Of a stretch of DNA of 64,000 nt, positions 19,755-54,900 are shown piece by piece. The stretch is taken from contig OZ014411.1 in assembly GCA_963965975.1 (NCBI GenBank), positions 15,776,446-15,840,445 on the forward strand, in the 5' to 3' direction. The translations under genes and the position numbers were made by a program. Position 1 is the stretch's first letter. Each line of letters starts with the position of its first letter. The notes beneath the pieces are model-generated. The model was given only the letters and a program-made list of their open reading frames with translations. It did not search any database and was not told the origin of the DNA. The stretch comes from Xestospongia bergquistia. Taxonomy: Eukaryota; Porifera; Demospongiae; Haplosclerida; Petrosiidae.

Positions 19755-21152
19755 GTAAATTATAGTTATAATTAATACATTACTATATCATACATTTAAA
19801 TATTAGTATTTTTGTCACATAGTACTATTGAATCTTTTGTAATAATAAACTTCTAAATCATTTTCGTTACTATACTGATTATATAGATATCATATATGTT
19901 AGACTAAACTCCTATAGTAATACCAGGAAAGTATATGGTACTATCAATGGTTGATATTGTTGTTGTACATGTCCTTCCACCTGTTGTAGTTCAAATGTTA
20001 ATAGTCTTACTTGTAGCAATGGTGGATGTAATACTAGAATTCTTATATGTGCTAATCAAGGGAGTACTGCACAGTCCTGTGTGTATTCTAATGTTATTAA
20101 CAGTGATACTGTTAACTTTGGTCTGGGAAATGTTGCAGGTGGTCTGACTAATCCAATTCAAGTTACTATACCAGGACCATTACTACTTAATGTGAGTTTA
20201 TAAAGTTATTATACAAAGTAACAAATATCAGGACTTCACTTAATGATAGTAACTATAATTATAAAAAGTTATTATTGAATACAACATTGTATATACTGTT
20301 TATTACTACAGACTAATGTAAAAATCAACATTGAAGTCCTTGATGACAATGGAGTAAGCTTAACTGTTAATCCAACTCACATTCTTAATTCTCAAACTAA
20401 CCTGCAGTCACCTCAAATATCTAGTATTTTTAGTTCTAACACAACAGTCAATGAAGGTGGTAGCAATATTATATCATTATCATATGCTACTAGAATAGAG
20501 TGTGGTACAAGCTACTATCAGTCAGACTGTTCTGTGTACTGTATACCAACTAATTATACTACTGGACATTATAGTTGTGATACTAATGGTAACAAGATCT
20601 GTTTACCAGGCTATACTAATAGAAGTATCAACTGTCTTGATGGTATGTCGTCTGTTCTTTGAATGAATTATATTATAACTTGTTTACTAAGGTCAGAAAT
20701 ATTAGTTTGCCATTTTTAATTCTATTTTTTTTAGTTAAAAGCTATCATATTTTAAATCTTCTTATCATTGGATGGAAAAAATTTGGTATGGCATTTATCT
20801 AGTTTGACCAAAAGTAATCCTTCTAAGCTATCATGTTATTACTTGATGTGGTACACCCTTTTTGTTCTGTAACTCATCATATTTACCTTTACTGTTTTAC
20901 TAATATACCATGACAAGAGATCCTTTCCTTCTAGCATTGCATATATACTTAATTCAATTTTATTATAGTTGTCTCAATTTATGCAATCATATTTTGTAAA
21001 TTGAGTATACATGTTAAATACTTTACAATAATAGATACACTTGTTTACTACACATATTACACTTGTTTTTTATATTAGGAGAAGGTACAGGAGGAGTAAC
21101 ACTATCATGTGTTAATAACTGCTACTGTTCTAAAGATAAAGACAATGAATAA
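19707..21152 (+). CDS. Short Delta-like Notch ligand: signal peptide, MNNL and DSL domains
   Basis: Exons: 19707-19754 (signal peptide), about 19927-20191 (MNNL), 20312-20642 (DSL) and 21079-21152. The MNNL part shows 'CSNGGCNTRILICANQ' and 'NPIQVTIPGPLLLN', matching the N-terminal module of Notch ligands. The DSL part has the full Cys series from 'ECGTSYYQSDCSVYCIP' through 'TGHYSCDTNG' to 'C'. DSL binds the Notch receptor. The last exon adds 'SCVNNCYCSKDKDNE' and stops, so there are no EGF repeats and no membrane segment. A TGA at 19952-19954 sits in the MNNL frame near the exon start. Either the exon begins after it or the gene is damaged. Confidence 0.7.
19955..20191 (+). CDS. Delta-like exon 2: MNNL domain
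   Basis: Open from 19955 to the donor AAT|GTGAGT, with ten Cys in the first 36 codons. An upstream AG at 19925-19926 would add eight codons and the TGA at 19952. Phase 0 into exon 3. Confidence 0.65.
20312..20642 (+). CDS. Delta-like exon 3: end of MNNL and DSL domain
   Basis: 331 bp, acceptor TACAG, donor GATG|GTATGT. 'NIEVLDDNG' closes MNNL. The DSL Cys pattern occupies the last 48 codons, including 'GHYSCDTNGNKICLPGY'. The canonical DSL end 'GW.G..C' is represented by 'GYTNRSINC'. Confidence 0.82.
21079..21152 (+). CDS. Delta-like last exon with early stop
   Basis: 74 bp, phase 1 entry, with stop TAA at 21150-21152. AATAAA at 21148-21153 overlaps the stop and could serve as poly(A) signal. 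In longer Delta proteins EGF repeats would follow here. Confidence 0.65.
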
Positions 21153-27859: not shown

Positions 27860-28720
27860 CACTAAGTATAGTAGATGTAATTAATAGTAAGGTTAATGTA
27901 CATATAGGTAGCTGAGGAGAAGAGGGCATCCCTGATAGAGTCATGTCGATATATACGGTCTTTATTGCCGCCACATTCAATCTGATGATCACCGTAAGGG
28001 TCACAGGATGATTTACAGAAGGGACATGGGTAATCAACAGAGAACATTTTGACACCGAGCCAGTACTGGAGGCACCGACGAAACTCTTTATCATGGAGAT
28101 GGAGACCTAAGGCAAGGGAGGGATCACATTTAGCCAATCTCCTGCATGGGGGATAGCAGAGGATAAGGCAAGAGCTTTCAGACAAGAGGAGGGAGCATTT
28201 GAGAGGAGGGAGTCAAAGGAGGGTTGATCAATGGCTCTAGAAAGATGGCTTTGGTACAGAATGAAGTGAATGGCATTGGAAGAAGACCAATCCGGGTTCC
28301 TAGATGCGAAGGAAAACTAGGAAAAAGCTTCTGTAAGCTGAGAAGAGTGATTAGGGTGATACCCCAGGATCTCTACCATCAGAAGCTGGGAGAAGGAAAC
28401 TGAGCCAATATAGGCGTCGGAGGAATGTAGAGAAGCCCTACGGAAACTGAGGTCCCCTAAAGAGGTGGGGAGAGAAGCTTTGGTCCAAGACCAGTCTGGT
28501 AGAGGGCCGCCCATCAGATCAGAGAGGGATTTGTATATAACAGAGTCAAAGGAGGTAGTGGCGTCTCTGATATTTTAGGGAGGACAAGTTCTGAGGGAGA
28601 AGAAGATTTTGGGGAAGGCAAGACAGCACTTAAAGAGTGTTGTTTCCATTTGTGAGTCCTGTAGGTCAGGTAAAAAAGAGAGAGTATGTTTTAGCTTTGT
28701 CACTCTCTTTTGGACAAAAG
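27860..28720 (-). mobile_element. Non-LTR retroelement, reverse transcriptase C-terminal fragment
   Basis: Minus-strand frames show 'DLQDSQMETTLLRSCLAFP', 'GGPLPDWSWTKASLP' and 'GDLSFRRASLHSSDAYI', followed by a zinc-ribbon-like 'CPFCKSSCDPYGDHQIEC' and 'DSIRDALFSSA'. This series occurs downstream of the RT palm in some animal non-LTR elements. Frames are shifted relative to each other and the catalytic part is absent. The GC content is clearly above the surroundings, marking an insertion. Confidence 0.7.
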
Positions 28721-29972: not shown

Positions 29973-30200
29973 TCAGGATAAAGTGATCATGAGCAGCTGC
30001 AGAGTTGAAACATGATGATTAGGAGATGGAGATAAATTCCCACCAGAACTCAGTGCATACATGTCTTGATTCTCTAATAAAATAGATTTATTCATTCTAC
30101 CATTTCCATCCTCTTCTAATTCTATTTTTATTTCTATGACCAATCTATCAAGCCTATCATGTTCATCAATATTATAGTTTATATATCTGTAATATATTTC
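29973..30200 (-). CDS. Orphan terminal exon resembling a receptor cytoplasmic tail
   Basis: A 76-codon open stretch on the minus strand that starts after an AG acceptor (TATAG|GAA, phase 0) and ends with TGA at 29975-29973. The composition is clearly protein-like: acidic 'KIELEEDGNG', then 'LLENQDMYALSSGG' and 'SPSPNHH'. It is reminiscent of the cytoplasmic tail at 21,657-21,899 ('DLSENPSYLCV'). It sits 127 bases beyond the stop of gene 2. Its phase does not fit the last gene 2 donors, so it is either an alternative end of gene 2 or a remnant of an inverted Delta-like unit. Confidence 0.45.
   Translation of the reverse strand, partial: EIYYRYINYNIDEHDRLDRLVIEIKIELEEDGNGRMNKSILLENQDMYALSSGGNLSPSPNHHVSTLQLLMITLS
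30127..30132 (-). promoter_or_regulatory. Possible polyadenylation signal AATAAA for gene 2
   Basis: AATAAA on the minus strand about 200 bases after the stop. It falls inside the open frame at 29973-30200, so it may be accidental. Confidence 0.25.
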
Positions 30201-30327: not shown

Positions 30328-30413
30328 TTATTTTCTTGTTATGTATATAAAATAGGCTATAACAGCAACAAAAATGGCTACCAACAGCAACATAAACCAA
30401 CTACCATCCTCTC
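30328..30413 (-). CDS. Gene 2 last coding exon: C-terminal membrane anchor
   Basis: 86 bp ending in TAA at 30330-30328. It encodes a 20-residue hydrophobic helix (875-894, 'FMLLLVAIFVAVIAYFIY') and only three residues after it (T-R-K). With no signal peptide upstream this suggests a tail-anchored protein with the ankyrin and death domains in the cytosol. The homologous exon in the third copy is at 60,170-60,231. Confidence 0.85.
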
Positions 30414-33400
30414 CTAGTGAGTAAAGAAAGAACATATAACAATGTACTTAAAAATTCAGAAATATAAATTAACTGAATGCCAACAAACAGACATAAATAA
30501 TAGCACTAATTTATTTAAAATAAGGAAGTTTAATATAAGATATCAAATTTCTTATTTAACATCATAACTATATAATTATACCTTTTGTCTTAATTGGCTC
30601 TTGATAAATTGGAGGAGGAGAATTAAAAGTGGTAATCTCTTGACCTATGGAGTGACACAGGAACAATTGTTAAATGCAATTTTCAACTTTACCAGGTTGA
30701 TAAGAGTAATCATTTTTGATCTCAGGTCTTAATAAGTAGTAAAATATCTTTTCTGCTACTGCTTTGTTTTGTACAGGTGGGTCCTCAACAACAGTGATTA
30801 TCATTCTCCAAGATTTTTCACAAGTTCTCTGATCTTTCCAAACCCGTAGAACTTCTAACAGTTTTGCAGTATCATTATGTGGCCAATTCTGTTTAATAGA
30901 CTTTAGATGAACATCATTCACAGCAAGTTGTACACCAATAATTTCCCAATCACACCTAATGTCATTAAGTTGTGTCATCAGGTGTTGTATCTTAGGCTCT
31001 TTACCTATAATAATGAGAAAATAAGAAATATGACTTAATTAACTACTCATTGACAAAATTGTCTATTAATTTGCAAATTTCATAACTCACATAACAATTC
31101 ATCAGAAATTCCTAATCCATCATACGATGACGGGATATGGATAGAAGGATGACTATTGGTAGAAGGAGTATTGGTAAAGTGAGCTATATTTAAAAAAAGA
31201 GCATAATTATTATATTTCTATATAATGCTTCAGTAATTATATAAGCTCAGGTAATATGTTATATGACATTATATTAAAACATGAATATGTTCTGTCTTTA
31301 ATATCACTCACTTGTTGTCTCTTGCTCTTGTTGCAAATTATAACTAAAAATTACCAAAGTCATCTGCAGCCTTATTCCTCTAAAAGTAAGCCGTAAGTCA
31401 GTGAGTTCCTTCTTATCTTTGAGAGAGACTTTAAAGGTTAAGGATGGTAGGGCAGAGCCTGGTTGACATCGATCAATGAACTTTCTAGAAAGCTTAAACA
31501 ATACAAAATTTAAAACTTCACAACAACTAGGACTTTACTTGGAATGGTAACAACATTGGCTGAATGTCGTAATTCTCATTAGCAATTGTAACTTCAGTAA
31601 TGTTAGGATCAGAGAAAGCAAATGTGTCTATCCTTTTCCAATTTTCAAATTGTTTCTCTGTTTTCACTCTCTAATATAGATAACAAACATTTAATACAGT
31701 GGTTATATAGTGTTATAGTTTTTAATTCATTATAGCTGCATACCTCAATAAAAGGTCCAAGATTTTTAGTAACAACTGCTTGTACTTCCCAACAAAACTT
31801 CGCCTTCTCTTTGAAAAACACTGTCATTGCATAACTATGAGATGGTTGTTGAAATAAAACACTCCTAATTTTATTGATGATGCCAATGACACAAAAATCA
31901 GAGATACCTACGACACCAGAATTGTCATAAGGTGTGAACACTTGGTCATATTCAGTTGGTAACAGCTCAAACTTGTAAGGTGGTTGTCCTTTAGCTCTGA
32001 TAAATGCTAGATGTTGACTTTCCTCTTGTGACCTGAGCTGAACATTATGTTGGAGATGAAGCTTAATAGGTTTAGAGAATTTTCCAGTTGTTTTAATCTT
32101 GTAGAAACAGCTAACAAGCTCAACATCAGGAGGGAGGATGATATCGGACTCTTTTAATGCGACTACATTGACTTCAGTTTTGATATCCTGCCCTTCTTCC
32201 ACTGACGATGGTGGAATGACTAGCTTGATTCCATACTCTGGTTTCTCAAAAACTTGCTCTTTATTGAGGTATTCAATATTCCATTTAGACACATCTTCCA
32301 AAACTAAATAATAACAAATCAAACAAGTAGAAGTACTACATAGTTGTTGTCTAATACCTTACCTCGTTTTGGATTGTACTCCTTAAAAACTCTGGAAACT
32401 TCATCCTTCCTTTCGTCACAACATTCCTCTAATGGAGTGTTACCCTCATTATTTTTAATAGTCGTATCTGCATCTTGAGATAGCAATGATTGTATAACAT
32501 TTATATGACCTTCTTTGGAGGCAATATGCAATGCAGTATTACCATCCTATTTAAAATTAGACTAATCAATAAAATAATTTATGGATTTATTGACCTTGTT
32601 ACAAATATTAGGATCTGCATGATAATATAAGAGTAACTGGACTATCTCAGAGTGACCTTCTTTAGAACTACAATGCAAAGCTGTCATCTGATTCTAGAGA
32701 AATTAATTGTCATATTAACTAGTACATCATTAACATCAATGGTATCACTACTTCATGTAAGAAAGTGTGGTATAGAATTAATAATATGTGGTACATATGC
32801 AACAATATCTATATGCAATATATATTAGCCTTATCACAAATATTAGGATGTCTATCATGTTGTAAGAATAACTAGACTATCTCAGTATGACCATTATTTT
32901 GAGGTTCTATGTAGAGCTATTATCTGATCCTAGAGAAATTAGTTGTTATAAGTCACTTGTAGAATTCATGCAAATATGGTAGAATCTTACAAATGAGTAG
33001 GCAAATGGTCTGGCAATATAGTGCAGATTTCTGCCTAACATATACTAGGAGAAAATAAGTTATTTGCAAATACTTTTATTTCCTAGCAGTAAACAGTGTA
33101 GAAACCATTAAGCCAATTATTGTATAGAGTTTGTTACTGTTGGAAGATAAGGCATTAAATCTAACCTATCAATGTCAGAACTGAACTATCATGTCAATTG
33201 AACTAGCTGATCTTCTCATTAATTGTTGATTCTACAGTAATCCACTCAATAAGCTATATTAATTTTAAGTACTTATGCACATATCTTTGTACTCATGCAC
33301 TAGTAGGAACTAAAATTATAGTATTAATATGTTCTTTCAGTCAGCCAAAATAATCTGTCCGTTTCTGCATTTTACCTAAACATGAGGTTGCCTTATGCAT

Positions 33401-36400
33401 TGAACACTAAAGGCTATCTCTCAGCAGTGAGACACCTACTGGTAACAGCTAAGAACTCTAAAGCTGTTTTGATTTAGCCATCACACTAAGATGTATTAAA
33501 ATACAAAAACAAAGAAAGCAGGACTGGCCACCCAGGAGAAAACTTCTATTGATGACAACATTGAAGTACTTCCTCAGCTTTATGAACGCAGCACGTATCA
33601 CTCAATAGGCATACATGTCACAGCTTCCAAAGAGGGTCAGCAACTACCTGTTTAAATGATACAATTCTCCTAAGTAGTATTTACTGTAACTTTTATCATC
33701 TATCCTTTTAATTGACTCAAGCTTTGAGACATGTTCAGTCATTTGGACTAGACTTTGTTACAATGACATTTCCAAGCTTAAAGTGCAGCATAAAAGCTCT
33801 CTGAAGTGTTAAGTCATCAAAGTCCTTTGAATTGACAGTATTTAATATTGAAAAGAAATCAGTTCTAAAATTACCATCAAGTCTAAATTTACCTTTAAAG
33901 CCATGTCAACAGTAGTGAAAAAAGACTATGATATTGTCTACTTTAAAACAGTTTGTTGTGTATTTTTATGTTTTACTATTTCTTAGAAATGTCAAGATTA
34001 CACAAACATAATTAAATCATAATTAATGCCTTTCACGCAAAGCTTGATTGTTTTTTTTTACTACAATAGATATATATAAGTGTGTGTGTGTGTATATATG
34101 TACATACCACATAAGTCCTAAATGACTGCCTACCATATATGTAGTGCATGTTTAATTGAGGGTGATACATTTTAATGGTTGCAATAGTGAAATATCACAA
34201 TTTGTAGTAGTACAGTGTTTAAAAGTGAGTATATATTGCAGAGATTCTACTGCATGGTCACTATGTCATAATAATAAGATGCAAGAAAGCTAATTAGAAA
34301 AAAGAAATGTAGTATATCAATAAGAAACAAAAAGCAGTCAATCATAATTAACTTTAATAGCTGACAATCTGCCAATATCTGCATCGAAATTAAAAATTTA
34401 TCTCTAGCACAAAAAGTTACAATCATACTTCCAGTCACAACCACACCTAATTAATATATATCACATGGAAGTCGATAGGAAACATAAGTAAGTAGTCCCT
34501 ATAACAGCCACTGTACACAAACTTTTATTTTCAGGTAATATTGATAGAAGTTGACATTTCACGTCAGACTTTCACTCTAAATATTTTGTGGGTGCACTTG
34601 AATTGACTATTGAAAAAGTTCATGAATGTTGTGATAATATATATCCATCCATCCATTCATCCATAAATACATGCACACACACAAACACACACACACATAT
34701 ATATTAATGAAAAAATGATCTCTATCCATCATTTGGAGTACAATAGGAATAAGTAGGAATATTGGTTAATACACCTGTTGAAAAAAAACTGTAATCATTT
34801 CTAAAGTTTTTTAAAAGAATTCTATCCTCATCTCATTCTGGTATACATTTGTTTGTGATATTCTTAAGGAAAATAATTTAATTGATATTATGATAGTATT
34901 GCTGGATGGAGTTAAATTTTATCTTTAATTTTATAGATATTGTCATAAAACATAATTATTATATACTCTAAAACTTACTTTGTTAAGAAGATCTAGATTA
35001 GCTCCTCTCTGGGTTAAAATTGAAACTATATCTTTGTGTCCCTTCTCTGCTGCTAACAAGACTGGAGTAGATCCCACCTAAATATATTATAAAAATTCCA
35101 TCTATATCCACTAATATATGTATCATAAGATTTGTATATTATCTACATTACAAACCTAGACAACATTATATCTAGTCAAGAAAGTATCAATCTTACTCAA
35201 ATGCTACAATTCTTTTAAGTAGTTTTTACTGTAACTTTTATCATCTGTCCTCTTAATTGACTCATACTATGAGATATGCTGAATCACTAGGACTAAATGT
35301 TTTTATCTTGACAAATTTAACATTTCTAAGCTTAAAGTACAGCAAAAAAGCTCTCTAAAGTCCTAAGTCATCAAAGTCTTAAGACTTGTCAATAATTAAT
35401 ATTGAAAAGGAATTGGTTCTAAAATGAACCAACAAGTCTAACTTTGCTATCAGGCCATGTCAATAGTAGTGAAAAAAAGAGACTGTAATATTGTCTACTT
35501 TAAAACTTTTGTTGTTGATGTGTATTTTTATCATGTTTTACTATTTCTTAGAAATATCATGATTACACAAACCACAGTGCTAATACATATCATTATTAAA
35601 TCATAATCAATGCCTTTCAAATATAGCTTGATTGTTTTGCATATATATATATATATATATGTATATGCACACATACCACATAGTCCTAATTGACTGCCTA
35701 ACATACATATACATAGTACACATTTAATTGAGGGTGATACATTTTAATGGTTGCAATAGTGAAATATCCAAATATAGTAGTAATACAGTGTCTAAAAGCG
35801 AGTATATATATATGGTAGAGATTCTACTGTATGGTCACTATGTCATAATAATAAGATGCAAAAAAGCTAATTAGATAAAAGAAATGTAGACAATATCAAT
35901 AAGAGAGAAAAAAGCAGTCAATCATAATTAACTTTAATAGCTGACAATCTGCCACTATCTGCATTGAAAGAAAAATTTTATCTCTAGCAAAAAGCTACAA
36001 TCATACTTCCAGTTACAACCACACCTAATTAATATATCACATGGAAGTCGATAGGAAGCATAAGTAAGTAGTCCCTATAGCAGCCACTGTATACAAACTT
36101 TTTTCAGAAAGTATTGATAGAAATTGACATTTCACATCGGACTTTCACTCTAAATATTTTGTGAGTGCACTTGAATTGACTATTGAAAAAGTTTAAGAAA
36201 GTTGTGATAATATATATCCATTTATCCATTCATATATCAGGCCTGGTGTCAATTACATTGCAATGTAATCTATTACTATTACTATTACTTCAAAATTTTT
36301 CTATTACTATTACTATTACTATTACTGGCTGAATTCATAGTAATATATTACTATTACTATTACTATTACTGGCTGAATTCATAGTAATATATTACTATTA

Positions 36401-36920
36401 CTATTACTATCACTGGCTGAATTCATAGTAATATATTACTATTACTATTACTATTACTGGCTGAATTCATAGTAATATATTACTATTACTATTACTTTGA
36501 AGTCTATTACTATTACTATTACTTCACAACACAGTTAAGATTTTGTAATTTGTATTTAAGAAATTAAATCAAGCAGTTGTAACATCACTAACATGTTGAT
36601 TGCATTTAATGGTGATTAGTTTTTTAAATACAGAGTCACTCAGGGAGCACCTGTCAGGTTGGAAAATACCTTGCTATACCTTGTTAACTGATCAGAGAGT
36701 CAGAGACATATGCTAAATTGCTAACTAACACAATATAGGACTAAACAGGAATGTAATAGAAATGTAATATGAAATTACATATTACTTTCCCTTTTATTAC
36801 TATTGCTATTATTATTACACAACTATTTTGAAACATATATTACTATTACTATTACTATTACATGAAAAAATGTAGTCGTTACTATTACTATTACATATTA
36901 CTATTACCCTAGGCCTGTCA

Positions 36921-36951
<31 letters not shown>

Positions 36952-39900
36952 TAATGAAAAAAGTGATCTCTATCCATCATTTGGAGTACAATAGGAACAA
37001 CTAGAAATGTTGGTTAAAACATCTGTTGCAAAAACTACAATTTTTTCTAATGTTTTTTAAAAAAATTGTATTCTTTTCTCATTTGGATATGCACTTGTTT
37101 GTGATATTCTTAAAGAAAATAATTCAATCTATATTATAATAGTATTGCTAGATAGAGTTAAATTTTATCTCTATAGACTTTGTCATGAAACATAATTATT
37201 ATGTAAATGAACACTTACTTTGTTAACAAGACCTAGATTGGCTTTTTCCTGGGTTAAAAATGAAAAAAAGTCTTGGTATCTCTCCTCTGCTGCTAATGTG
37301 ACTGAAGTATCCTCCTAAATATATTATAAAAACACTCTATATATGCACTAATAGAATGTATTATAACATTTGTACAATAACTACTGTAACAATAATATCA
37401 TCAAGACAAAGAAAACTTTAATAATTCTATATAGTGTATAGTCTATAATAGACACACAATATAGAATTGTTGACAATACATTATGAATGTAAATTTGACA
37501 CTTGACACTAGCAAAAGCTATATATTATTTTGTTGATAGATCTAGTTTCACTGACAAAGACAATCATCTTTTTTCTCGCATCTTTTTTAATCACAAACAC
37601 TTAAACACCTTTTTCACTGAAAGTATATTCAATGAATACTTTCTTATTTTTAGTTAAATCTTATGCAAAGATGTTGAGCTATATATTTTGTTATGCTTTA
37701 CTTTTTTTACATAAATCTGAAGAGGTGCACCTAGTGTTTGGTCTAGTCTTAAATTATTATAGTATCTATGCTATGTTTAGTTAATGTGTTCACAGATGTA
37801 GATTAAGCATTAGAGTAAAAACTACTCATTCTCATGATCTGAATTACCTTAGTGATAACATTGATATCAGCTCCATGGTTGACAAGTACTTCAACAATGT
37901 CTGTATGTCCTTCATAACTTGCATAATGAAGGGCTGCCCAGCCTTCCTATTATAGAAACAAGCAAACAATCAACTATTAGACTGCTAACACATTACAATA
38001 ACGCTACAAACATATATAGACTCCAAAAATATCTAAATAGTTAAATCTTTACAATTTATCAAGATATATCAATTTATTACAAGTCAATCATTATTTTTTA
38101 AGAAGTCTTTTTAAAGGTATTGCCACTAATTTAATGAAGATCAAGATGATTTAAGTACATAATTATAGTGCAATATAAGGGCTTGGAATATGAAAATGAG
38201 ACACAAAGATATAATCATTACGATATAGTTAAGCAAAAACTTGCTGATAAGAAATATACAATATAACTCTTAATAGCACTTTACTTATCAATTATTGTCA
38301 TGACTCTGTCAGTACATTCTGCACATCTTTACTATAATAACCAACATTACCTGACTGATTATTATATCTCACTAGCTATAGCTTATTAATAGTCTACATA
38401 TTGGAAACAAACAAGGCCACTTTAATAATGACTTGCTAACAATACCACTAAGCATACCAAGTAGAACTGACCGATATATTGGTACTGTAATCATACTGAA
38501 CATTAAAATGCTCAATTATATCTAAATTTATAAATCCACAATACCACTTGATAAGCCTTTTAGTACAACACTATATTACAAATCGATATTATTTCTTTTC
38601 AAAGAAAATATTAAGCTAAGCAAGTATTGTTTTGTATGACCTTCATTGTTATATTATGCGAGTGCTTAAATTAATTGTTAATAAATTGATGACATTGTGA
38701 TTTTTATCATTGTTTGGTGTCCAATAGAATAAATAGGGAAATTGTTTAAAGCATATTTAATAAAATTTACAATTTTTTATAGTATTCTAAAAACGTTTTG
38801 TATCCCATTCCATTCCTGGTATTCATTTAATTTGAACTTTATCACAACAGTAATGTAATTGATGACTGTATTATAAGAAAAATGATTTGCACATTATCTT
38901 CAGATATAGAGGGTTAGTAATGCAAGATATGCAATGAACACTTACTGCATTAACAATGTCTAGATTAGCACCTTTCTTGGTTAACATCAAAACAATATTT
39001 TTGTATCCCTTCTTTGTTGCTATTATAACTGCTGTAGATCCCTCCTAAAGATATAAAAATCTCATAACCCTTAGCCAATGAACTACAAAATAACTTACAC
39101 ACTATCTATAGTAACATTTTTTATTACTTATTACGTGAGTACACTAGTAACATTACAAACGTAAACAACATTAAGAAGTTAAACAAACCACACTCAACAA
39201 CTCTTACAATAGTGTCATCAATATAAATAACACTCTTGTGTACATAAATATACACAGTCATTACTTCAGAACAGGCAAATTTTTGCACAATTATCAGAGT
39301 ATCATCTAATGAAGACACCATACAAATTAGAGGTGATAACTTAATCATAAACATGAAAACAAAAAAAATATTGCTTTGAAAAATGACAACATTGTATTTA
39401 AGAAATTAGACATTATTATATTAACACCAATTATACTGTAAAGGACATTAAGAAGACAAGAACTTACAGCAACACAAATGTGTATGGAAAAACAATTGAG
39501 TTAACAAAATGACTACAATGAATTGAATGAATTTAGAAATAAAATTACATTATATCACACCTACTATCAATTGTTAAAGGACACATTCAGATGACAAGTT
39601 ATTAAAATAGATACAATCACAACAATGCATTGAATAAAATTAAAATTATATTACATTATGTCAAACCTACCGGCTATTGTAATGTTAAAGAACCATCCAG
39701 ATGACAAGTTATTGTACCATAAACAATAATGAAAGCAAAAAAGATTAAAATAGATACAATCACAACAATGCATTGAATAAAATTAAAATTATATTACATT
39801 ATGTCACACTTACCTCATACTTGTATTAGATTATAGAGTTAAGGAAACATCCAGATGACAAGTTATTGTACCATAAACAATAATGAAAGCAAAAAAGATT

Positions 39901-42900
39901 AAAATACATACAATCACAACAATGCATTGATTAAAATTAAAATTATATTACATTATGTCAAACCTACCTCCTATTGTAATGTTAAAGAAACATCCAGATG
40001 ACAAGTTATTGTACTACAAACAATAATGAAAGCAAAAAAGATTAAAATAGATACAATCACAACAATGCATTGAATAAAATTGAAATTATATTACATTATG
40101 TCACACTTACCTCATATTTGTATTAGATTATAGAGTTAAGGAAACATCCAGATGACAAGTTATTGTACCATAAACAATAATGAAAGCAAAAAAGATTAAA
40201 ATACATACAATCACAACAATGCATTGAATAAAATTAAAATTATATTACATTATGTCAAACCTACCAGCTATTGTAATGTTAAAGAAACATCCAGATGACA
40301 AGTTATTGTACCATAAACAATAATGAAAGCAAAAAAGATTAAAATAGATACAATCACAACAATGCATTGAATAAAATTAAAATTATAATACATTATGTCA
40401 AACCTACCAGCTATTGTAATGTTAAAGAAACATCCAGATGACAAGTTATTGTACCATAAACAATAATGAAAGCGAAAAAGATTAAAATACATACAATCAC
40501 AACAATGCATTGAATAAAATTAAAATTATATTACATTATGTCAAACCTACCAGCTATTGTAATGTTAAAGAACACACCCAGATGACAAGTTATAGTACCA
40601 TAAACAATAATGAAAGCCAAAAGGATTAAAATAGATACAATCACAACAATGCATTGAATAAAATTAAAATTATATTACATTATGTCAAACCTACCAGCTA
40701 TTTTAATGTTAAAGGAAATATCAAGATGACATGTTTTGTACCATAAACAATAATGAAAGCAAAAAAGATTAAAATAGATACACTTACTTCATACTTGTAT
40801 TAGTTAAGGACACATCCAGATCACAAGTTATTGTACCATAAACAATAATGAAAGCCAAAGACATTAAAATAGATACACTTACTTTATACTTGTATTAGAT
40901 TATAAAGTTAAGGAAACATCCAGATGACAAGTTATTGTACCATAAACAATAATGAAAGCAAAAAAAGATAAAATAGATACAATCACAACAATGCATTGAA
41001 TAAAATTAAAATTACATTACATTATGTCAAACCTACCCCCTATTGTAATGTTAAAGAAAACATCCAGATGACAAGTTATTGTACCACAAACAATAGTGAA
41101 AGCAAAATGGATTAAAATAAGAGTTAGAGTAAAACATGCTCATTCTCATGATCTGAATTACCATAGTAACAACATTGATATCAGCTCCATGGTTGACAAG
41201 TACTTCAACAATATCTATATCTCCTTGATAACTTGCGAAGTGAAGGGCTGCCCGTCCATCCTGTTATAGAAAAAACAAATTAATTATTAATTAGACTACT
41301 AACACAACAACAACCAAAGTACAAACATACACTGACTGCATAAAAGTATCTTGTGTTATATTCTCCTATTTGTCATTATATATATCATAGTCATCACCAA
41401 GTAAGTCGATTGTATATTTATTATTAATAAATTTTCTTTTTTAAAAGAAGTCTTTGTACAGGTATTCTCATTAATTTAGTGAAGATCAAGATGCTTTAAA
41501 TTAAATATAGTGTAATGTAAGGGACTTATAAATAAGACGCATACATAAAATTATTAGAATTTAAGTCTACAATATTAAGCAAACAGTCCAGCAAAAGCAA
41601 TGTTTCATATCATGACCTTGACTGTTATATTGTATGAGAACTTAAATTAATTATTAATAAATTCATAAAAACATTTATATTATGCCATCCAATAAGAATA
41701 AATAGGAAAATTGATTACACCATATGTTATAAAATTTGTAAATTTTGGTAATATTATAAAAATGTTTGTACACTGATCCAATTCCAGTATTTGTTTATTT
41801 TCACATTCTTAAAAAATAATTCAAGTTTTATCATAAGAGTATTGTAACAAATGACTATCTTTTAAGGAATATTGACATTTTATCCTCAGTTAAATCCGTT
41901 AATACCACTTGATATGTTATGAACACTTACTGCATTGACAAGATCTAGATTAGCTCCATTCTTTGATAAAATTAAAACAGCTTTTTTCCATCTATTCTTT
42001 GCTGCTAACATAACTGGTGTAGATCCCTCCTAAATATATAATAACAATCCCATAAAAATTATGTTAGGCAATACACTACAACATAACAGTGCATACCATC
42101 TCTTTAACATTAGTTTATATTTATTGCATGTGTAATACAAGTAACGTTACTAACATAAATAACATTGCAAAATATCAGTCACATCAACCACTTTTAAGTT
42201 AAAAAAAGCCACAAAGCCACTCTCAACAACTTTTACAATAGTGTCATCAATACAAACAACACTCAAATATATACATAGTCATTACTTCACAATAGACATG
42301 TTTTGTCAGCATAACATTATATAAATAAAAATTTGACATTTCATTGTAGTCTGTGATCATAAAAAAATACTTATTTCTTAGTAGTATAGAAGAAGAACTA
42401 GCATTCCTTACAAACTTGTAAGGGACACAATCACATGACAAGTAATAAAGCACCAAACATTTGGAAACAAAGAAAAGATTAAGCAGACACCAATGCATTG
42501 AATAAGTTTCAACAAAAATAATAAAATACTCAATTGACAGCACTGTATTGCATACAGTTAAAAATTATACAAAATTGTTGTTATATATATTTGGTATGCT
42601 TTACTATGTTTACAAAAATTTGAAAACAGTATGAATGTTCAGGTGTAGTGTTGCTTCCTTGTTAATGTAACAAAATTGTAGTAAATATATGTTAATCTAG
42701 TATTATTATATTTATGCAATATCTAGTTGATATTTGTTTACACATGCAACTTAAATATTAGAGTAAAACATACTCATTCTCATGATCTGAATTACCTTGG
42801 AAACAACATTCATATCAGCTCCATGGGTGACAAGTACTTCAATGATATCTATATGTCGTTGATCACTTGCATAATGAAGGGCTGTCCAGCCTTTCTATTA

Positions 42901-45900
42901 AAGAAATGAACAAACAATAAACTTTTAATTAGACTACTATAACACTACAATAACATTCAAACGTTATGGAGAGACATTCCTTCTCTAAATTTAATTAATT
43001 GCATTCTCTGTCTATTTGTTTTTGCTAGTAGGAAAATGTTTGCTGTCATGTTCTACCAGGATGGTAGCTCCAATGTGAATACATCATCCAACTGTTTTCA
43101 GTACATAATATTCTTTGATCTGGCAAACTTGAGTATAGGTTATTTGTGAGGATTTTTTGAGAGTAATATTCTTTCTGATTTTGTTTTGGTTCCCACTTCC
43201 TTGTCAGGTTAGTGTGAGATACTAATGTCTTAGCTGCATAGAAAGGAATGTACTATAATTGAATTCAGTTAAGGTAAGCAATAACTGAATTTGTCCTATG
43301 GTTACTAAGTGTTCACTCCATATAGTGGTATACCTGGTATGTTATCAATGATACTATCAATGTTGTCAAGTCTGGCTAATAGTCTTCTTATTTTGTGTAC
43401 AAATGTGGCTGCAGAGTTCATCATCCTGAAGGCATCTTTAGAAACTCTTAGGAGCTGTCTTGTGTCATAAAAGCTGTTATAAAAATGTCTGCTTTGGCTG
43501 TTGGGACTTGCCAGTGTCCCTTACTCAAATCAATCTTGGAGAAATGTTTATCTTTACTGACTTTATGGAATATATTTTCAAGCAACCATCGTGAAGTCTG
43601 GATCAAATACGGTGATTTCATTTAACTTTAGCTGGTTAAAGCTGTCTTTTTTCAAATGACCACTATGGTGTATGTCATTGTTGCTCATGATATCCTTTAT
43701 TTTAAATTGGATCTTTCTACTGTATCATTAGGTTATTACGTTCAGTAGAACAGGATCTCAAGTTTGGAACTCTCAGACTTCTGCCTTTCTGTCATAGTTG
43801 TGCTTGTATCTTTTTGAGATTTGTAAGGTTCCTCCTGTACAATCTTCAAAGTGTCATCCAATATTTCATTTTCATTTCAAAAAACATACAGGTAGCTGTT
43901 TTTCGCCTTGGGTTGCTAAACATTTTGTTCATAGCTCTCTTAGGGCAAGTACTGGACTGTGGCTGTACAGAATTGAAAGTGGCAAACATGTGAACTATTG
44001 GGGGATCTCATTAACCACAGTAGCAGGTGAGTACAACAGTGCCATTGTTTGGGTTGCACAATCTTTTTGACATATTATTGGATGTGTCATTGAACTTCTT
44101 AACTAAACCAATTACACATAGGATGATAATGGATGAATATGAGCTGTTGAAATCTTAGGAACTGAGATATTCCATCACACATTCTGAGACAAACTGGGTA
44201 ACCATGTCACCTTAGTTTTTTTTTTGGTAAACCTAATCAACTTATTTGTTAACCAGTGCTTCTGCTACAACTTCTGGGCTGATTTTTAAAAGGCATAGCC
44301 TCAGGGTATCTAGTAACATAATCTACCGAGATGATTATGTAATGGTGACTATGAGGATGGTGTATTTGGCCTACTATATCAACTGCAGCTTTTTTGAAGG
44401 ATATATGAATTAGTGGTATTTTTAGTGGGACTTTTGGAACATTTTATTATGTATTGTTTTCAGACAAATATCACAAGTTTACAAAAAGTTATTACAGCTT
44501 TCTTTATTCCCTGCCTCAAGGGAATATTCTGAGGGTCTTTCAGGTGATTTTTCTGACAAACTAGATGACAATTGATGATGGAGTTAATGGACCATTTCTA
44601 TCATTATGACATAATGCCATAGGTACTATGACTATGTGGAGACATTTGGCGCTGTCCACTTTTGTATGTGTAAATATTCAGTAAAGAATGCCTATTTTTC
44701 TTTGAACACACTATCTACTCTACTTTGGTTTGGAATTGACAGAACAGTTCATTGTAATTTTGATGTGATTTGTCCTCAGATAGTAACTTTATAAGCATGT
44801 CCTTTTTCTTTGGACATGTCGTCCTGTAAAGACACTGTAGATGGAGCAAGAGGTTGATATTTTGCCTCGTGGTTTAGGCCATCAGGAGCTCTAATTCCAT
44901 GGGTATTACTACCTTTATTGATGTCATAGACAAACATAGAGTTTCGACATCTTCAATAAGATAGGCTGTCGACTTTAATTTTAGATAATGTGATTCTTTG
45001 TATGATGTTGTCAGTCAGGAGCACATAAATGAATTTACTAGTATATTTTGTCATTGCTCACAAAGGCTTTCTTTACTACAATTCCACTGCAACCAATGGC
45101 TCTGAGGGTATCAATACTTATGTCTCCAATTCTTACTTTCTCTACTGGCATTTTGCCAATGAAATAAAGTTGTGGTTGAATACAGGCACTTCTGACCAGT
45201 AGTAATTTTTTTCTACATGTTCATTGTCTGTTATACTTGTCTTTATCTATTCTTCTGTTGAAAAGTTGGAAGGCTCTATTTGCACAAGGCAACTAGTGCA
45301 TATCTCAATTTTTTGCATTCTTTGAGGTCATTTTTTCCTCCATTAAAGTGAGGCATGTGCTTGTTCCACAAATTTATTTTCAACAACATATAATATTGTT
45401 ATTACAATATTATATGTTGGTGTATATTGAGTTCACAAAACAAACACTAAATTATGATAATAGTATAATTCAAAGAAAAATACAAAGTTAAAGAAGTCAT
45501 CCTTCATATTATGACTTTGATTATTATATTTGTGTAAGCACTTGACTTCATTATTAATAAATTCATAAATTGTGATTTTTTTTATGACCTACTGATATCC
45601 ATTAAGTAGGAAAACTGATTACTGCACATGTTGTAAATTTATACTTTTTTCTACTAAAGTTTTAAAAAATGTTTTGGACGCTATTATAATTCCATTATCA
45701 GTTGTCTTTCACATTCTTAAAAAATTAATTTCAACCTTTATTATAGCAGTATTGTAACTGATGACACTCTTTTAAGAAAAAATTAATTACATTTTATCTT
45801 CAGTTGTATAGACTTTGTCATATAACATATATACATGAACACTTACTGCATTAACAATGTCTAGATTAGCCCCCTTCATAATTAAAATCAAAACAACATC

Positions 45901-48900
45901 CTTGTATCCCTTCATTGCAGCTAACAAAACTGGTGTAGATCCCTCCTGAATATATAATAATAACCAAATAATTGTCAGCAATATAATACATTGTAAGTTT
46001 GCACAATACTACAGTAACATTTTTTTATATGTATTCTATTTGTACACTAGTAATATATACAACATATACAACATTACAAAGTATTACATTGATACACAAT
46101 TTGATACTATCATCTTATGAAGACACCATACAAATTAGAAGTGATAGCTTAACCATAAACATGAAAACAAAAAAAATATAGCTTTAAAAAATGACAACAT
46201 TGTATTTAAGAAATTAGACATTATTATATTAACACCAATTATACTGTAAAGGACATTAAGATGACAAGAACTTCCAGCAACACAAATGTGTATGGAAAAA
46301 CAATTGAGTTAACAAAATGACTACAATGCATTGAATGAATTTAGAAATAAAATTACATTATATCACACCTACCATCTATTGTTAAAGGACACATTGAGAT
46401 GACAAGTTATTACAGTGAAAACAATTTGGAAGCAAAAAAGATTTAAATAAATAAAATCACAAAAAATGCATTGAATAAAATTAAAATTATATTGCTTAAT
46501 GTCAAACCTACCTCCTATTGTAATGTTAAAGAAAACATCCAGATGACAAGTTATTGTACCATAAACAATAATGAAAGCAAAAAAGATTAAAATAGATACA
46601 ATCACAACAATGCATTGAATAAAATTAAAATTATACTACATTATGTCACACTTACCTCATGCTTGTATTAGATTATAGAGTTAAGGAAACATCCAGATGA
46701 CAAGTTATTGTACCAGTAACAATAATGAAAGCAAAAAAGATTAAAATAGATACAATTACAACAATGCATTGAATAAAATTAAAATTATATTACACTATGT
46801 CAAACCTACCTCCTATTGTAATGTTAAAGGAAACATCCAAATTACAAGTTATTGTACCATAAACAATAATGAAAGCAAAAAGATTAAAATGGATATAATC
46901 ACAACAATACATTGAATAAAATTAAAATTATATTACATTATGTCAAACCTACCGGCTATTGTAATGTTAAAAGAAACATCCAGATCACAAGTTATTGTAC
47001 CATAAACAATAATGAAAGCAAAAAAGATTAAAATACATACAATCACAACAATGCATCGTAAAAATTAAAATTATATTACTTTATGTCACACCTACCTCCT
47101 ATTGTAATGTTAAAGGAAACATCCAAATGACAAGATATAGTACCATAAACAATAATGAAAGCCAAAAAGATTAAAATAGATACAATCACAACAATGCATT
47201 GAATAAAATTAAAATTATATTACTTTATGTCACACCTACCCGCTATGTAATGTTAAAGGAAACATCCAGATGACAAGTTATTGTACCATAAACAATAATG
47301 AAAGCCAAAAAAATTAAAATAGATAAATGACAACAATGCATTGAATAAAATTAAAATTATATTGCATTATGTCAAACCTACCGGCTATTGTAATGTTAAA
47401 AGAAACATCCAGATCACAAGTTATTGTACCATAAACAATAATGAAAGCAAAAAAAAGATTAAAATAGATACAATCGCAACAATGCATTGAATAAAATTAA
47501 AATTATACTACATTATGTCAAACCTACCAGCTATTGTAATGTTAAAGGAAACATCCAGATCACAAGTTATTGTACCATAAACAATAATGAAAGCAAAAAA
47601 AATTAAAATAGATACAATCACAACAATGCATTGAATAAGATTAAAATTATATCACATTATGTAAAACCTACCAGCTATTGTAATGTTAAAGAAACATCCA
47701 GATGACAAGTTATTGTACCATAAACAATAATGAAAGCAAAAAAGATTAAAATAGATACAATCACAACAATACATTGAATAAAATTAAAATTATATTACTT
47801 TAAGTCATACCTACCCGCTATTGTAATGTTAATGAACACATCCAGATGACAAGTTATTGTACCATTAACAATAATGAAAGCCAAAAAAATTAAAATAGAT
47901 ACAATCACAACAATGCATTGAATAAAATTTAAATTATATTGCATTATGTCAAACCTACCGGCTATTGTAATGTTAAAAGAAACATCCAGATGACAAGTTA
48001 TTGTACCATAAACAATAATGAAAGCCAAAAAAGATTAAAATAGATACAATGACAACAATACATTGAATAAAATTAAAATTATATTGCATTATGTCAAACC
48101 TACCGGCTATTGTAATGTTAAAGAACACACCCAGATGACAAGTTATAGTACCATAAACAATAATGAAAGCCAAAAAGATTAAAATAGATACAATCACAAC
48201 AATGCATTGAATAAAATTAAAATTATATTACATCATGTCAAACCTACTGGCTATTGTAATGTTTAAAGAAACATCCAGATGACAAGTTATTGTACCATAA
48301 ACAATAATGAAAGTAAAAAAAGATTAAAATAGATACAATCACAACAATGCATTGAATAAAATTATATTTCATTATGTCAAACCTACCCACTATTGTAATG
48401 TTAAAGAACACATCCAGATGAAAAGTTATTGCACCATAAACAATAATGAAAGCCAAAAAAATTAAAATAGATACAATCACAACAATGTATTGAATAAAAT
48501 TAAAATTATATTACATTATGTCAAACCTACCCACTATTGTAATGTTAAAGAACACATCCAGATGACAAGTTATAGTACCATAAACAATAATGAAAGCCAA
48601 AAAAATTAAAATAGATACAATGACAACAATGCATTGAATAAAATTAAAATTATATCACATTATGTCAAACATACCGGCTATTGTTATGTTAAAAGAAACA
48701 TCCAGATGACAAGTTAAGCAAAAAAGATTAAAATAGATACAATGACAACAATGCATCGTAAAAATTAAAATTAAATCACATTATGTCAAACCTACCTCCT
48801 ATTGTAATGTTAAAGGAAACATCCAGATGACAAGTTATTGTACCATAAACAATAATGAAAGCAAAAAGATAAAAATAGATATAATCACAACAATCCATTG

Positions 48901-51900
48901 AATAAAATTAAAATTATATTACACTATGTCACACTTACCACATTCTAAAATCAGATTATAGAGTTAAGGAAACATCCATATGACAAGTTATTGTACCATA
49001 AACAATAATGAAAGCCAAAAAAATTAAAATAGATAAATGATAACAATGCATTGAATAAAATTAAAATTATATTACATTATGTCAAACATACCGACTATTG
49101 TAATGTTAAAGGAAACATCCAAATTACAAGTTATTGTACCATAAACAATAATGAAAGCCAAAAAAATTAAAATAGATACAATCACAACAATGCATTGAAT
49201 AAAATTAAAATTATATTACATTATGTCAAACCTACCGACTATTGTAATGTTAAAGAAACATCCAGATGACAAGTTATTGTACCATAAACAATAATGAAAG
49301 AAAAAATTAAAATAGATAAATGACAACAATGCATTGAATAAAATTTTAATTATATTACATTATGTCAAACCTACCGACTATTGTAATGTTAAAGAAACAT
49401 CCAGATGACAAGTTATTGTACCATAAACAATAATGAAAGCCAAAAAAATTAAAATAGATAAATGACAACAATGCATTGAATAAAATTAAAATTATATTAC
49501 ATTATGTCAAACCTACCATCTATTGTAATGTTAAAGAAACATCCAGATGACAAGTTATTGTACCATAAACAATAATGAAAGCAAAAAAGATTAAAGTAGA
49601 TACAATCACAACAATGTATTGAATAAAATTAAAATTATATTACATTATGTCAAACCTACCCGCTATGTAATGTTAAAGGAAACATCCAGATCACAAGTTA
49701 TTGTACCATAAACAATAATGAAAGCCAAAAAAGTTAAAATAGATAAATGACAACAATGCATTGAATAAAATTAAAATTATATTACACTATGTCACACTTA
49801 CCACATTCTTAAATCAGATTATAAAGTTAAGGAAACATCCAGATGACAAGTTATTGTACCATTAACAATAATGAAAGCCAAAAAGATTAAAATAGATACA
49901 ATCACAACAATACATTGAATAAAATTAAAATTATATTACTTTATGTCACACCTACCCGCTATGTAATGTTAAAGGAAACATCCAGATGACAAGTTATTGT
50001 ACCATAAACAATAATGAAAGCCAAAAAAATTAAAATAGATAAATGACAACAATGCATTGAATAAAATTAAAATTATATTGCATTATGTCAAACCTACCGG
50101 CTATTGTAATGTTAAAAGAAACATCCAGATCACAAGTTATTGTACCATAAACAATAATGAAAGCAAAAAAGATTAAAATAGATACAATCACAACAATGCA
50201 TTGAATAAAATTAAAATTATATTACATTATGTCACACACCTACCCCCTATTGTAATTTTAATGGGAACATCCAGATGACAAGTTATTGTACCATAAACAA
50301 TAATGAAAGCAAAAAGATGAAAATAGATACAATCACAACAATACATTGAATAAAATTAAAATTATATTACATTATGTCACACTTACCAAATTCTTAAATC
50401 AGATTATAGAGTTAAGGAAACATCCAGATGACAAGTTATTGTACCATAAACAATAATGAAAGCAAAAAAGATTAAAATAAATACAATCACAACAATGCAT
50501 TGAATAAAATTAAAATTATATTACATTATGTCACACCTACCCCCTATTGTAATTTTAATGGGAACATCCAGATGACAAGTTATTGTACCATAAACAATAA
50601 TGAAAGCCAAAATGATTAAAATAGATACAATCACAACAATACATTGAATAAAATTAAAATTATATTACATTATGTCAAACCTACCCCCTATTGTAATGTT
50701 AAAGGAAACATCCAGATGACAAGTTATTGTACCATAAACAATAATGAAAGCAAAAAAGATTAAAATACATACAATCACAACAATGCATTGAATAAAATTA
50801 AAATTATATTACATTATGTCAAACCTACCGGCTATTGTAATGTTAAAGAAACATCCAGATGACAAGTTATTGTACCATAAACAATAATGAAAGCAAAAAA
50901 GATTAAAATAGATACAATCACAACAATGCATTGAATATAATTAAAATTATATCACATTATGTCAAACCTACCAACTATTGTAATGTTAAAGAACACATCC
51001 AGATGAAAAGTTATTGTACCAGTAACAATAATGAAAGCCAAAAAAGATTAAAATAGATACAATGACAACAATGCATTGTAAAAATTAAAATTATATCACA
51101 TTATGTCAAACCTACCAGCTATTGTAATGTTAAAGAAAACATCCAGATGACAAGTTATTGTAACATAAACAATAATGAAAGCAAAAAAGATTAAAATAGA
51201 TACAATCACAACAATCCATTGAATAAAATTAAAATTATATTACTTTATGTCACACCTACCCGCTATTGTAATGTTAAAGGGAACATCCAGATGACAAGTT
51301 ATTGTAGCATAAACAATAATGAAAGCAAAAAAGATTAAAATAGATACAATCACAACAATGCACGAAGTAAAATTAAAATTATATTACATTGTGTCAAACC
51401 TACCAGCTTAATCAATATATCTATCTATCATAATAATAACTTATAAAACAAAAGAATAGAAATGTATCACTTCAATAAAGAAGAGACAAACTCTTTCCTA
51501 TTTATTTGATACTCAATAGGAGATAGGTATATGTAGTCACTATGGCAAACACTTTCCACAATGCTGAATTGTTGAATCTGAATTACCTTAGTAAGAACAT
51601 TGATATCAGCTCCATAGGTGAGTAACACATCAACTATGTCTGTATGTCCCTTATAACTCGCATAATGAAGGGCTGTCCATTTATTCTATTGGAGAAACAA
51701 ACAAACCATCAACTGCCAAATAATAAACACAGTAAAATAATAGTATAAACACACACAAACTCAATAAAATTATTAAGCTAGCACATATCCACTGTTTAGC
51801 CAATACTAGAAAATTATTAACTTAAAAATAATAGTTCAGTTAATGTTCGCAAATTCTTAGTAATTTAGAGTACAAAGGAATTTAATAGTAACTAAAGTGA

Positions 51901-54900
51901 TGGTGTTCTTCATATTCAAACAAATTCAGACTATCTATTTCGTTTATATTTTCTTGAACAATAAATAAAGTGGACTTACTGAATCTGTAGCATTTACATT
52001 AGCCCCTTTTGAGATAGCATCTTTTACTCTAAACAAATCTCCTTCATTAGCAGATTTAATTAAAATGTCATTCTAAGGCAAAAACAAAAACAGTAATTTT
52101 AAATATACTTACAAATATATTATTAGCAACTTGTTGAAGAATTTATTCAATGATAATTAAAGTTACAAACTGATTTAGTAATTAAAGTTTATTTATTGAA
52201 TGTTAAGAGAAGCACATTTGATGTATTGACATTGTTTGACATAAATGTTATAATCTCAGGCTAAAAAACAGGTTTGCATCATTAAATTAATTTGTTTTAC
52301 ATTTGACATATCAAGAACCTGTGACAATAACTTGACAGATATTTCATACAAATGATGTTCCATAATAGATAACTTATACAGTACTGATATTATTAGTATT
52401 ATGTATGTATTTTATAAATTGCAAAAAACCCTGTGAACTGTATACAGTGTCTTAAAACAACAATGACTAAGAAAATAAACACAACACCAATGGTTCAAAA
52501 AACTCAAATGCAAGGATATTAATTCATTAGTCAAATTACTGATAAATGTATAACTTTGAATAGTGGTTTAGCTAGCACCTTTAAATGGTGAGATTTAATT
52601 GGAAAAAGCAATAATATTAATTTTATTGCAATGTATTGTGAAGCTAAGATATCAGTTGGTCTAAGCTATGCACAGGGAGAAATTGTACAGTAAATAAGGT
52701 ATAGTAGTGGACTCTGTCACAGCATTGGTGTACATATTAACTAGGAATGATTAATATTAAGGTAATGGTGATTATAAAAATTTCTAGTAATTACATAGTC
52801 CTAAAGTTGTCAATGTCTTGGCTACAATGATTGGGTCATAAATCAATGTTTTCTATACAGTCATGTCACATTATAGCACTCCTTACTGAACAATAATAGT
52901 ACAGTTAATTTGAGCAAAGCTTATACTTATAACAAATAAAATCAGAAGACAGCAATTTAAAATATACAGTAATTGTCAGCTTAAATTATTATAATCGGCT
53001 ATCTCTAGTATTAACACTACACTACTCTTGTGTCAACTTTTACAAACTACAAGTTTTAATGTGAATTCATGTCTAGTGTACACAAGTAATTTGTGTTTAT
53101 GGATTTGAGGCAACTATTATACTCATTTATGATCAGGTCCCTTCACTGAAAAAAAGCTTATATAGTATTCTCTATTTAATATTATGTGACTGTTTACTAT
53201 AATTATGTTTAAAAGTACTTCAAACATTGTCAACATGATGCTGTCTACAAGAATGTCAACAGTGATTAGAGGCCATGGGCAGTGAATATGGAATACTATT
53301 TGTTACAAAAGGTGGTATTCTAAACCATATGACCCTGATATACAAGGTGACATTTGTAACACTTATATTATGCAAACATTACCCCTTAGCACATGTGCAT
53401 TGTATAGTTAACTATATTCACAGCTAGATACTAGATGCTAAACCTGAAACTGAAACCCAAAACTCTAAGCAGGCAAATGCCACTTGATACACATAGTGCT
53501 TTTTCTCACAGCAACAACAAAAGTTGTGCTGTTGAAACTTTATTGTCCTTTTGTAATAAATTACATTCAATAATATATCATAATAATATGTCATGTGCAA
53601 TAGGTATTCAAGTGCCTCATGTTGTACCGTGGACCCATTGTGCAACCAGTTATGATTTTCTTTGATTATACACTCTTGAGGGTCTTTGTTCTTCTGTCCA
53701 GATTGATCATTGTTATGTGAATACTTACCACAACCAAACAGAATGACAATAGATATAAAGGTTTCTCAGATTGCCAGCTTGCTACACTGAAAGAACTCAT
53801 CTCAACTGCTGTAAAGGAACAATAACAACACAACGACAGTCATCCAGTGGCAAGTTATGCAGTAGGTTGTTTTCTGTAAGATTTAAGTGCCCAGACAGCA
53901 CCCAGTGCTCATATAGGGTAAAACAGTAATGTTCCCAGAGCATTCAAATCTGTTGATGGATCCTAAGAGATTAGTGGCATATAGTGGAATTCTGTAATAG
54001 CTCCTATTGTATTCACTCTTTGTGGTCATTTAAAGAGGTTAACTCACAGTGATATTCACAAAGTGAACATAATTACCTAATGCTTAATCTCACTTTGCAC
54101 AGAAGTTGTTTTTGCGGAAAGTTGCCTGACACAGTTGTGATGGATGGAAAGTGTATAATGATACTTTCCTGCATTAAGCAGCATTAACCATTATATTTGT
54201 ATTCTAACCACACTGTCAGGGATTATTCCATATAAGGAAAATATGCTTAAGTAGCATAAGTACTGTTAAGTACGTGACGGAGCAACGAATATAATTACAA
54301 TCATCAATGATGAGTAAAATGAAAAAACTAAAAAAAGAAAGAAGTTATGTACATCGAGAAACGTTTAAAAGAATTAGACTTGGAGGTTATGGAGGCTTTT
54401 GTCATTAAAGAGGTGGAAAAAGTTGAACAACATATCTTTATTCACCTGTGTTATTAAAACCTCCTTTTGCTATTAAGGCTAATATTATCTGATATTATAA
54501 CATTATCATTATTAATACAATGAACAGTTACTACATCTTTTAGTTGCATGCATGGTTTACAAATCAAGTTTTCATATAAAGAGTGGTGCATTTCTATAAT
54601 CTCCACGGTGATGCCTCAGCTTGTCACGAACACTTCCTCTAGTTATAACTGCACGTCTGGCAATTCAGTGATGATAATTGACCTGAGGTGGCGTGCTTCA
54701 CTTGGCTAAAGAAAGTCTCAACTGCACTACCATTGAGATGTACTGGATATATTGTGTACCCAGGGTGAGCAGAAGTGAAATCAGCACATAAGTTCTTAAA
54801 GCCATAATACATGAGCCGTGTAAGTCCCAGGTTTGCCAGCAGTAACCCTGAAATGTCCCATTTGTTCAGCCACTCGTGGATCCATTGACAGAGTCGGCCG

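Follow-up and report, generated by a model that had tools for sequence, protein, structure and literature searches.

The minus-strand gene at positions 30328-52363 of the window (the whole stretch of 64,000 nucleotides analysed here, contig 1, 15776446-15840445, of the 146-Mb, 21-contig genome of the sponge Xestospongia bergquistia) encodes a predicted protein of 911 residues, probably a signalling scaffold that belongs to the ZU5-death class and is tail-anchored. In order, the protein comprises a short N-terminus, 12 ankyrin repeat-length units, a ZU5 domain, a region at the position of a UPA domain, a probable death domain, a proline-rich linker and a hydrophobic helix. Judged from its sequence, the gene product resembles scaffolds of cell death or immunity. 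The ankyrin-ZU5-death-C-terminal helix order is a novel arrangement among ZU5-death scaffolds, with UNC5CL and MAVS as precedents.

The gene consists of 20 exons (Table 1), all of them open, which join with consistent phases across AG/GT borders. When the reverse strand is read in three frames, the nine C-terminal exons, from 32693 down to 30328, are AG/GT-bounded and each is in phase with the next, the chain remaining open from exon 20 back to exon 12 with AG and GT at all internal borders. Exon 20 is preceded by TTTACTCACTAG and joins exon 19 in phase 1; this join, together with the open AG/GT chain, confirms the original prediction that it is read in frame as the last exon. The 897-residue protein proposed at the time was also joined in frame, and its length is now revised to 911, a gap close to the 15 residues of exon 1. 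Further upstream, each ankyrin unit has an exon of its own, and the units fall into two types in a largely alternating order. The gene has a tandem copy, at window positions 1368 to ~14345 on the minus strand and locus L023, in which an exon resembling exon 1 ends at ~14301.

Table 1. Exons of the gene and candidate polyadenylation signal (window positions)
Feature	Position	Strand	Basis
Exon 1, MEHHLYEISVKLLSQ, putative start without hydrophobic signal	52319..52363	-	45-base ATG open frame, GT donor, phase 0
Exon 2, first (divergent) ankyrin unit	51980..52072	-	joined frame
Exon 3, ankyrin repeat	51587..51685	-	joined frame
Exon 4, ankyrin repeat	45847..45945	-	joined frame
Exon 5, ankyrin repeat	42796..42894	-	joined frame
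Exon 6, ankyrin repeat	41931..42029	-	joined frame
Exon 7, ankyrin repeat	41162..41260	-	joined frame
Exon 8, ankyrin repeat	38946..39044	-	joined frame
Exon 9, ankyrin repeat	37848..37946	-	joined frame
Exon 10, ankyrin repeat, degenerate but open	37219..37314	-	joined frame
Exon 11, ankyrin repeat	34979..35077	-	joined frame
Exon 12, ankyrin repeat	32595..32693	-	open frame, AG/GT, Pfam
Exon 13, last ankyrin repeat and linker, phase 1 end	32363..32546	-	open frame, AG/GT, Pfam
Exon 14, ZU5 and start of UPA-position region, holds Phe573-Cys574	31744..32303	-	Pfam ZU5 above cut-off
Exon 15, UPA-position region	31539..31670	-	open, AG/GT; UPA not detected
Exon 16, UPA-position region	31312..31492	-	open, AG/GT
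Exon 17, Ser/Thr/Pro-rich linker	31091..31183	-	open, AG/GT
Exon 18, probable death domain	30693..31004	-	Pfam Death below cut-off; six-paralogue profile matches FADD
Exon 19, proline-rich linker	30582..30644	-	open, AG/GT; paralogue comparison
Exon 20, probable hydrophobic tail anchor and stop	30328..30413	-	hydropathy, paralogue alignment, genome-wide tail matches
AATAAA, candidate polyadenylation signal, ~235 bases past stop	30087..30092	-	read on coding strand

The last exon encodes GEDGSWFMLLLVAIFVAVIAYFIYITRK-stop, and the last 23 residues of the protein in the joined frame, WFMLLLVAIFVAVIAYFIYITRK, are the same as those previously described as a hydrophobic helix plus T-R-K. They form the most hydrophobic stretch of the 911 residues (best 19-residue hydropathy mean 2.9; next best 1.56). 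Only three residues follow the helix, and the stop codon stands directly after the ITRK that ends it. The ten most hydrophobic windows of the protein include none at the N-terminus. By hydropathy, therefore, the protein has one helix, in its final ~30 residues, and no signal peptide, as expected of a tail-anchored protein. The order of the ankyrin repeats, ZU5, death domain and helix, the lack of an N-terminal hydrophobic stretch and the stop right behind the helix together make a tail anchor probable, in keeping with the C-terminal anchor first proposed, and the remainder of the protein would lie in the cytosol. For the accompanying idea of a sensor that faces the cytosol from a membrane, the domain order and the N-terminus are as required and the topology itself is plausible. 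The charge behind the helix is +2 in the window tail and 0 in 11 of 19 family tails, and does not separate endoplasmic reticulum from mitochondria.

Profile searches of the conceptual protein, the check suggested with the original prediction, recover the ankyrin repeats and, over its cut-off, ZU5, with Death below cut-off and no UPA. The ankyrin matches in Pfam are strong, both for the C-terminal 569 residues and for the whole 911-residue protein. ZU5 of the window protein scores 21.7-22.8 bits against a Pfam cut-off of 21 (22.3 for the C-terminal 569 residues and 21.7 for the whole protein), and is matched in all six aligned family members, that of the window included, at E<=1. On the single window sequence Death reaches 15.4 bits (C-terminal 569 residues) and 14.5 bits (whole protein), the Pfam cut-off being 22.6, and two of the six family members match at E<=1. 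A profile built from the six members matches FADD chains over the death exon (best E 1.1e-4), and a death domain in the window protein is probable. In UNC5, PIDD and ankyrin, the place of UPA is between ZU5 and death. Pfam detects no UPA in any of the six members or in the C-terminal 569 residues of the window protein, and a genome-wide search with PF17217 (UPA) gave no match anywhere, controls included. When the UPA-position region is aligned with the UPA of UNC5B, the hhalign score is 9.9, below that of at least 8 of 60 shuffles. The PDB profile search returned no ZU5-UPA protein among 14 chains at E<=1, and the whole UNC5B chain 3g5b gives a probability of 0.3% with the family profile, which is no significant match. 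As UPA is undetected, the region is termed 'UPA position' only; of the ankyrin-ZU5-UPA-like-death order first described, the sequence upholds ankyrin, ZU5 and death followed by the anchor, and retains the UPA-like element as a position. The C-terminal 475 residues have no match in NCBIfam, and AlphaFold models of the single sequence are of low confidence and decide nothing (mean pLDDT 40 for the ZU5 exon and 47 for the death exon).

The tail exon is shared widely within the genome. Three tail peptides, two of which carried a few assumed end residues around matched cores that are real, were searched against the whole 146-Mb genome at E up to 10 and found 17, 22 and 21 places. These amount to 24 distinct tail exons. 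All are on contig 1, where 23 fall between 13.1 and 17.6 Mb and the remaining one lies at 27.6 Mb. Compared with the 46 death exons on contig 1 among the matches listed of 158, 21 of the 24 tail exons lie 168-937 bases downstream of a family death exon on the same strand. For the other three, the check covered the acceptor rather than the whole join: upstream of the L041 tail lie a linker exon and a related fragment of a death domain; the L042 tail comes directly after an ankyrin exon, and the interval has neither a ZU5 nor a death match; and the L043 tail, which is 4.1 kb past the L033 death exon, is not preceded by any significant match to the family in the stretch examined. The phase-1 tail acceptor behind the ankyrin exon in L042 (2016-2464) gives an apparent ankyrin-only, tail-anchored relative.

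Nineteen of the 24 tails were read (that of the window and those of 18 loci). In 15, the exon begins after AG, in phase 1, reads into the helix and meets an early stop. In four (L028, L030, L035 and L039) the phase-1 join yields G-K-D-stop, so that a stop is met before the helix, for which an open frame exists only in a different phase; these paralogues may be soluble or may use another splice. The hydrophobic frame ends no more than five residues from the best hydropathy window in all 19. Among seven aligned close copies the tail exon is without an indel in six (the exception being the end of L024), and the preceding intron has several. Hydrophobic open frames are not rare in the local AT-rich DNA, two of five tail-less loci having one with a mean >2.2 within ~2.4 kb. 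A chance hydrophobic frame is ruled out, because the tail exon is homologous among paralogues and occupies the same place behind family death exons.

The layout of the window gene stands as first described, but the gene is not a singular oddity: it belongs to a large local family, some members of which have shifted tails or none. Of 21 death-domain loci compared (that of the window and 20 others), the tail is in frame in 12 and shifted in four; one (L033) has a distant candidate only, and the remaining four (L027, L029, L031 and L036) have no tail in the stretch examined. Nine of the 12 in-frame-tail loci have an ankyrin exon that adjoins ZU5 with matching phases. In L026, the ankyrin exon precedes the first of two ZU5 units, and in L034 there is no ankyrin exon before ZU5 and a death-domain-like exon stands further upstream. 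In L023, the neighbouring tandem copy, the ZU5 match begins at residue 72, the start of ZU5 being missing, and no last ankyrin exon was found before it. The family also includes more elaborate forms: two ZU5 and UPA-position units stand in a row ahead of the death domain and tail in L026 (1735-5173), and a second, different death-domain-like exon lies upstream of ZU5 in L030 (2261-2560), L034 (2202-2501) and L039 (2185-2484).

Given the tails missing in four of the 21 loci and shifted in four, the family appears to be mixed, with anchored and apparently soluble members. Phase 1 borders are common to the last ankyrin, linker, death and tail exons, so that the same cytosolic module can come with or without an anchor among paralogues. 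The mixture of copies with and without the tail suggests that a single signalling component serves both at membranes and as a freely dissolved protein. In a tree of 25 death exons, the tail label requires six changes, three of them forced by well-supported branches, where L003, L004, L005 and L007 are coded tail-less on little DNA beyond the linker exon and L033 is coded tail-less despite its candidate 4.1 kb away. The tree is too weakly resolved to tell if the tail arose once.

These observations bear on an alternative in which the anchor of the window protein is optional. The main product would then be soluble, either because reading continues past the proline-rich exon to KTKGIII-stop or because other C-terminal exons are used, with the tail exon reserved for a minor membrane isoform. 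Consistent with this, the helix stands alone in the terminal exon, the frame KTKGIII-stop is seen after the proline-rich exon, and L029 has other C-terminal open stretches with splice-like borders in place of a tail, in addition to the tails that are absent or out of the usual frame in other loci. However, the acceptor, frame and early stop are preserved in the 15 of 19 tails noted above, and an optional anchor is considered unlikely.

The anchored scaffold favoured here has likenesses to several known systems. UNC5CL (ZUD) combines ZU5, UPA and death with a membrane helix at its N-terminus and lacks both a receptor ectodomain and ankyrin repeats. It shares ZU5, death and a membrane helix with the window protein; the helix is N-terminal in UNC5CL, whereas here it is C-terminal, behind the death domain, and is the only one indicated by hydropathy. 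UNC5CL is described as signalling through IRAK1/IRAK4/TRAF6 to NF-kB and JNK (PMC7570868), at odds with its description as an NF-kB suppressor (PMC13255311). The netrin receptors UNC5A-D are described as membrane proteins with cytosolic ZU5 and death domains (PMC10464613). In contrast, the window protein has no ectodomain (no Ig or TSP match in Pfam at E<=0.1 across the 911 residues) and, by hydropathy, no N-terminal signal; its anchor is on the opposite side of the death domain, and the UNC5B chain is not significantly matched. In PIDD1 and the FIIND proteins NLRP1/CARD8, as here, ZU5 precedes a death-fold domain. MAVS is mitochondrial and has a CARD at its N-terminus and neither ankyrin repeats nor ZU5. 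It is a death-fold signalling protein with a tail anchor (PMC11348129), as the window protein probably is. Some sponge NLRs have predicted transmembrane domains and are suggested to be membrane-bound (PMC12909245). These are NACHT-LRR proteins, unlike the window protein in architecture. The view that the layout is unusual for a death-fold scaffold thus holds for its order, which is new, and not for membrane tethering, which has precedents in MAVS, UNC5CL and the sponge NLRs. In titles and the beginnings of abstracts of the open-licence literature, no description of ankyrin-ZU5-death with a C-terminal anchor was found among the matches listed.

Ankyrins have ankyrin repeats, then ZU5, then death, and no membrane helix. 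As ANK1-3 have this order in common with the window protein, the latter could be a conventional cytoskeletal adaptor of the ankyrin type, with an acquired membrane helix and no part in death or immune signalling. Its family is, however, large and clustered, and ankyrins are not known to form such families. Moreover, ankyrins have 24 ankyrin repeats (PMC4358367), about twice the 12 units of the window protein, which in addition has one ZU5 match, no detected UPA and a terminal membrane helix. A cytoskeletal role is accordingly thought quite improbable.

As a member of a tandem array, the gene might instead be a decaying or unexpressed copy. The truncated ZU5 match and missing ankyrin exon of the neighbour L023 fit such decay, as do the degenerate ankyrin repeat of exon 10 and a same-family death-domain relic with stop codons at 60839-61129 (-) of the window. 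Yet all 20 exons are open with AG/GT borders, and pooled dN/dS is below 1 in every one of eight exon classes (0.42-0.86; tail 0.46, ZU5 0.46, death 0.67), values which are rough, coming from short exons of eight close copies in 20 or 27 pairs with the window-L021 pair left out. Decay is thus very unlikely. The hydrophobicity of the tail was also set against a neutral simulation, in which 11 of the 15 in-frame tails were compared with the window's own (itself one of the 15). This gave P values of 0.05-0.26 per diverged copy (n=7) and 0.20-1.0 for near-identical ones (n=4), the lineages not being independent, and selection for tail hydrophobicity is weakly supported.

The position of ZU5 ahead of a death-fold domain raises the matter of self-cleavage. 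CARD8 and NLRP1 are described as self-cleaving, the cut falling between a Phe and a Ser where ZU5 ends (PMC3210808). At the likely F/S-site position, Phe is present in all 21 family members compared, the next residue being Ser in 12 of them and Cys in nine. The window protein, with Phe573-Cys574 at this position in exon 14, differs from FIIND proteins in its Cys. In rat NLRP1, H942, 27 residues before S969, is proposed to be catalytic (PMC8081665). Going upstream from Cys574 in the window protein, the first His is 40 residues away and the 39 residues in between contain none (distances in sequence), and there is thus no counterpart of H942. His522 is invariant in 21 of 21 members and faces a His of UNC5B in a weak alignment. 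Self-cleavage of ZU5 in this family is considered possible, not likely. It would be integral to a further reading, in which the family comprises lineage-specific, membrane-tethered, self-processing death-fold sensors that are cut at Phe573-Cys574 and whose paralogues gain or lose the tether by a phase-1 exon. The ankyrin-ZU5 fragment, being degradable, would then restrain a death-domain fragment that stays on the membrane, an arrangement otherwise like that of NLRP1/CARD8. This reading is a very doubtful one.

For the tail-anchored scaffold, the preferred reading, a mechanism can be proposed. The helix would be inserted post-translationally into an internal or the plasma membrane, leaving the ankyrin repeats, which would bind partners, the ZU5 module and the death domain all facing the cytosol. 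In UNC5B and PIDD, ZU5 restrains the death domain. By analogy, the ZU5 module here may act as a lid that keeps the death domain in check, and binding of a partner by the repeats would release the death domains and cluster them in the plane of the membrane. Clustered in this way, they could recruit death-domain adaptors of the FADD kind, by analogy with FADD itself.

Should the anchor be in use, repeated copying within one animal lineage has produced membrane-fixed ankyrin-ZU5-death scaffolds, tethered by a C-terminal helix in the manner of MAVS and as a mirror image of UNC5CL. The presence of anchored and apparently soluble paralogues in one genome would allow the effect of tethering on death-fold signalling to be compared between natural relatives. 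As the anchor is encoded by a short last exon, it may easily be missed by gene models of such families.

Several other features lie in the window. An open frame at 20279-20662 (+) carries a DSL (Delta/Serrate ligand) domain (Pfam E 1e-11) and, by this domain, is assigned to a Notch-ligand-like gene beside the array. The 116-residue open frame at 27862-28212 (-), which has no Pfam match, carries CPFCKSSCDPYGDHQIECGG and presumably resembles the end of a retroelement reverse transcriptase. Tandem repeats of ~144 bases fill introns of both gene copies (46316-51405, 39601-40981 and 4751-9906), and a further tandem repeat, with 4.4 copies of a 44-base unit at 98% match, is found at 36302-36496.
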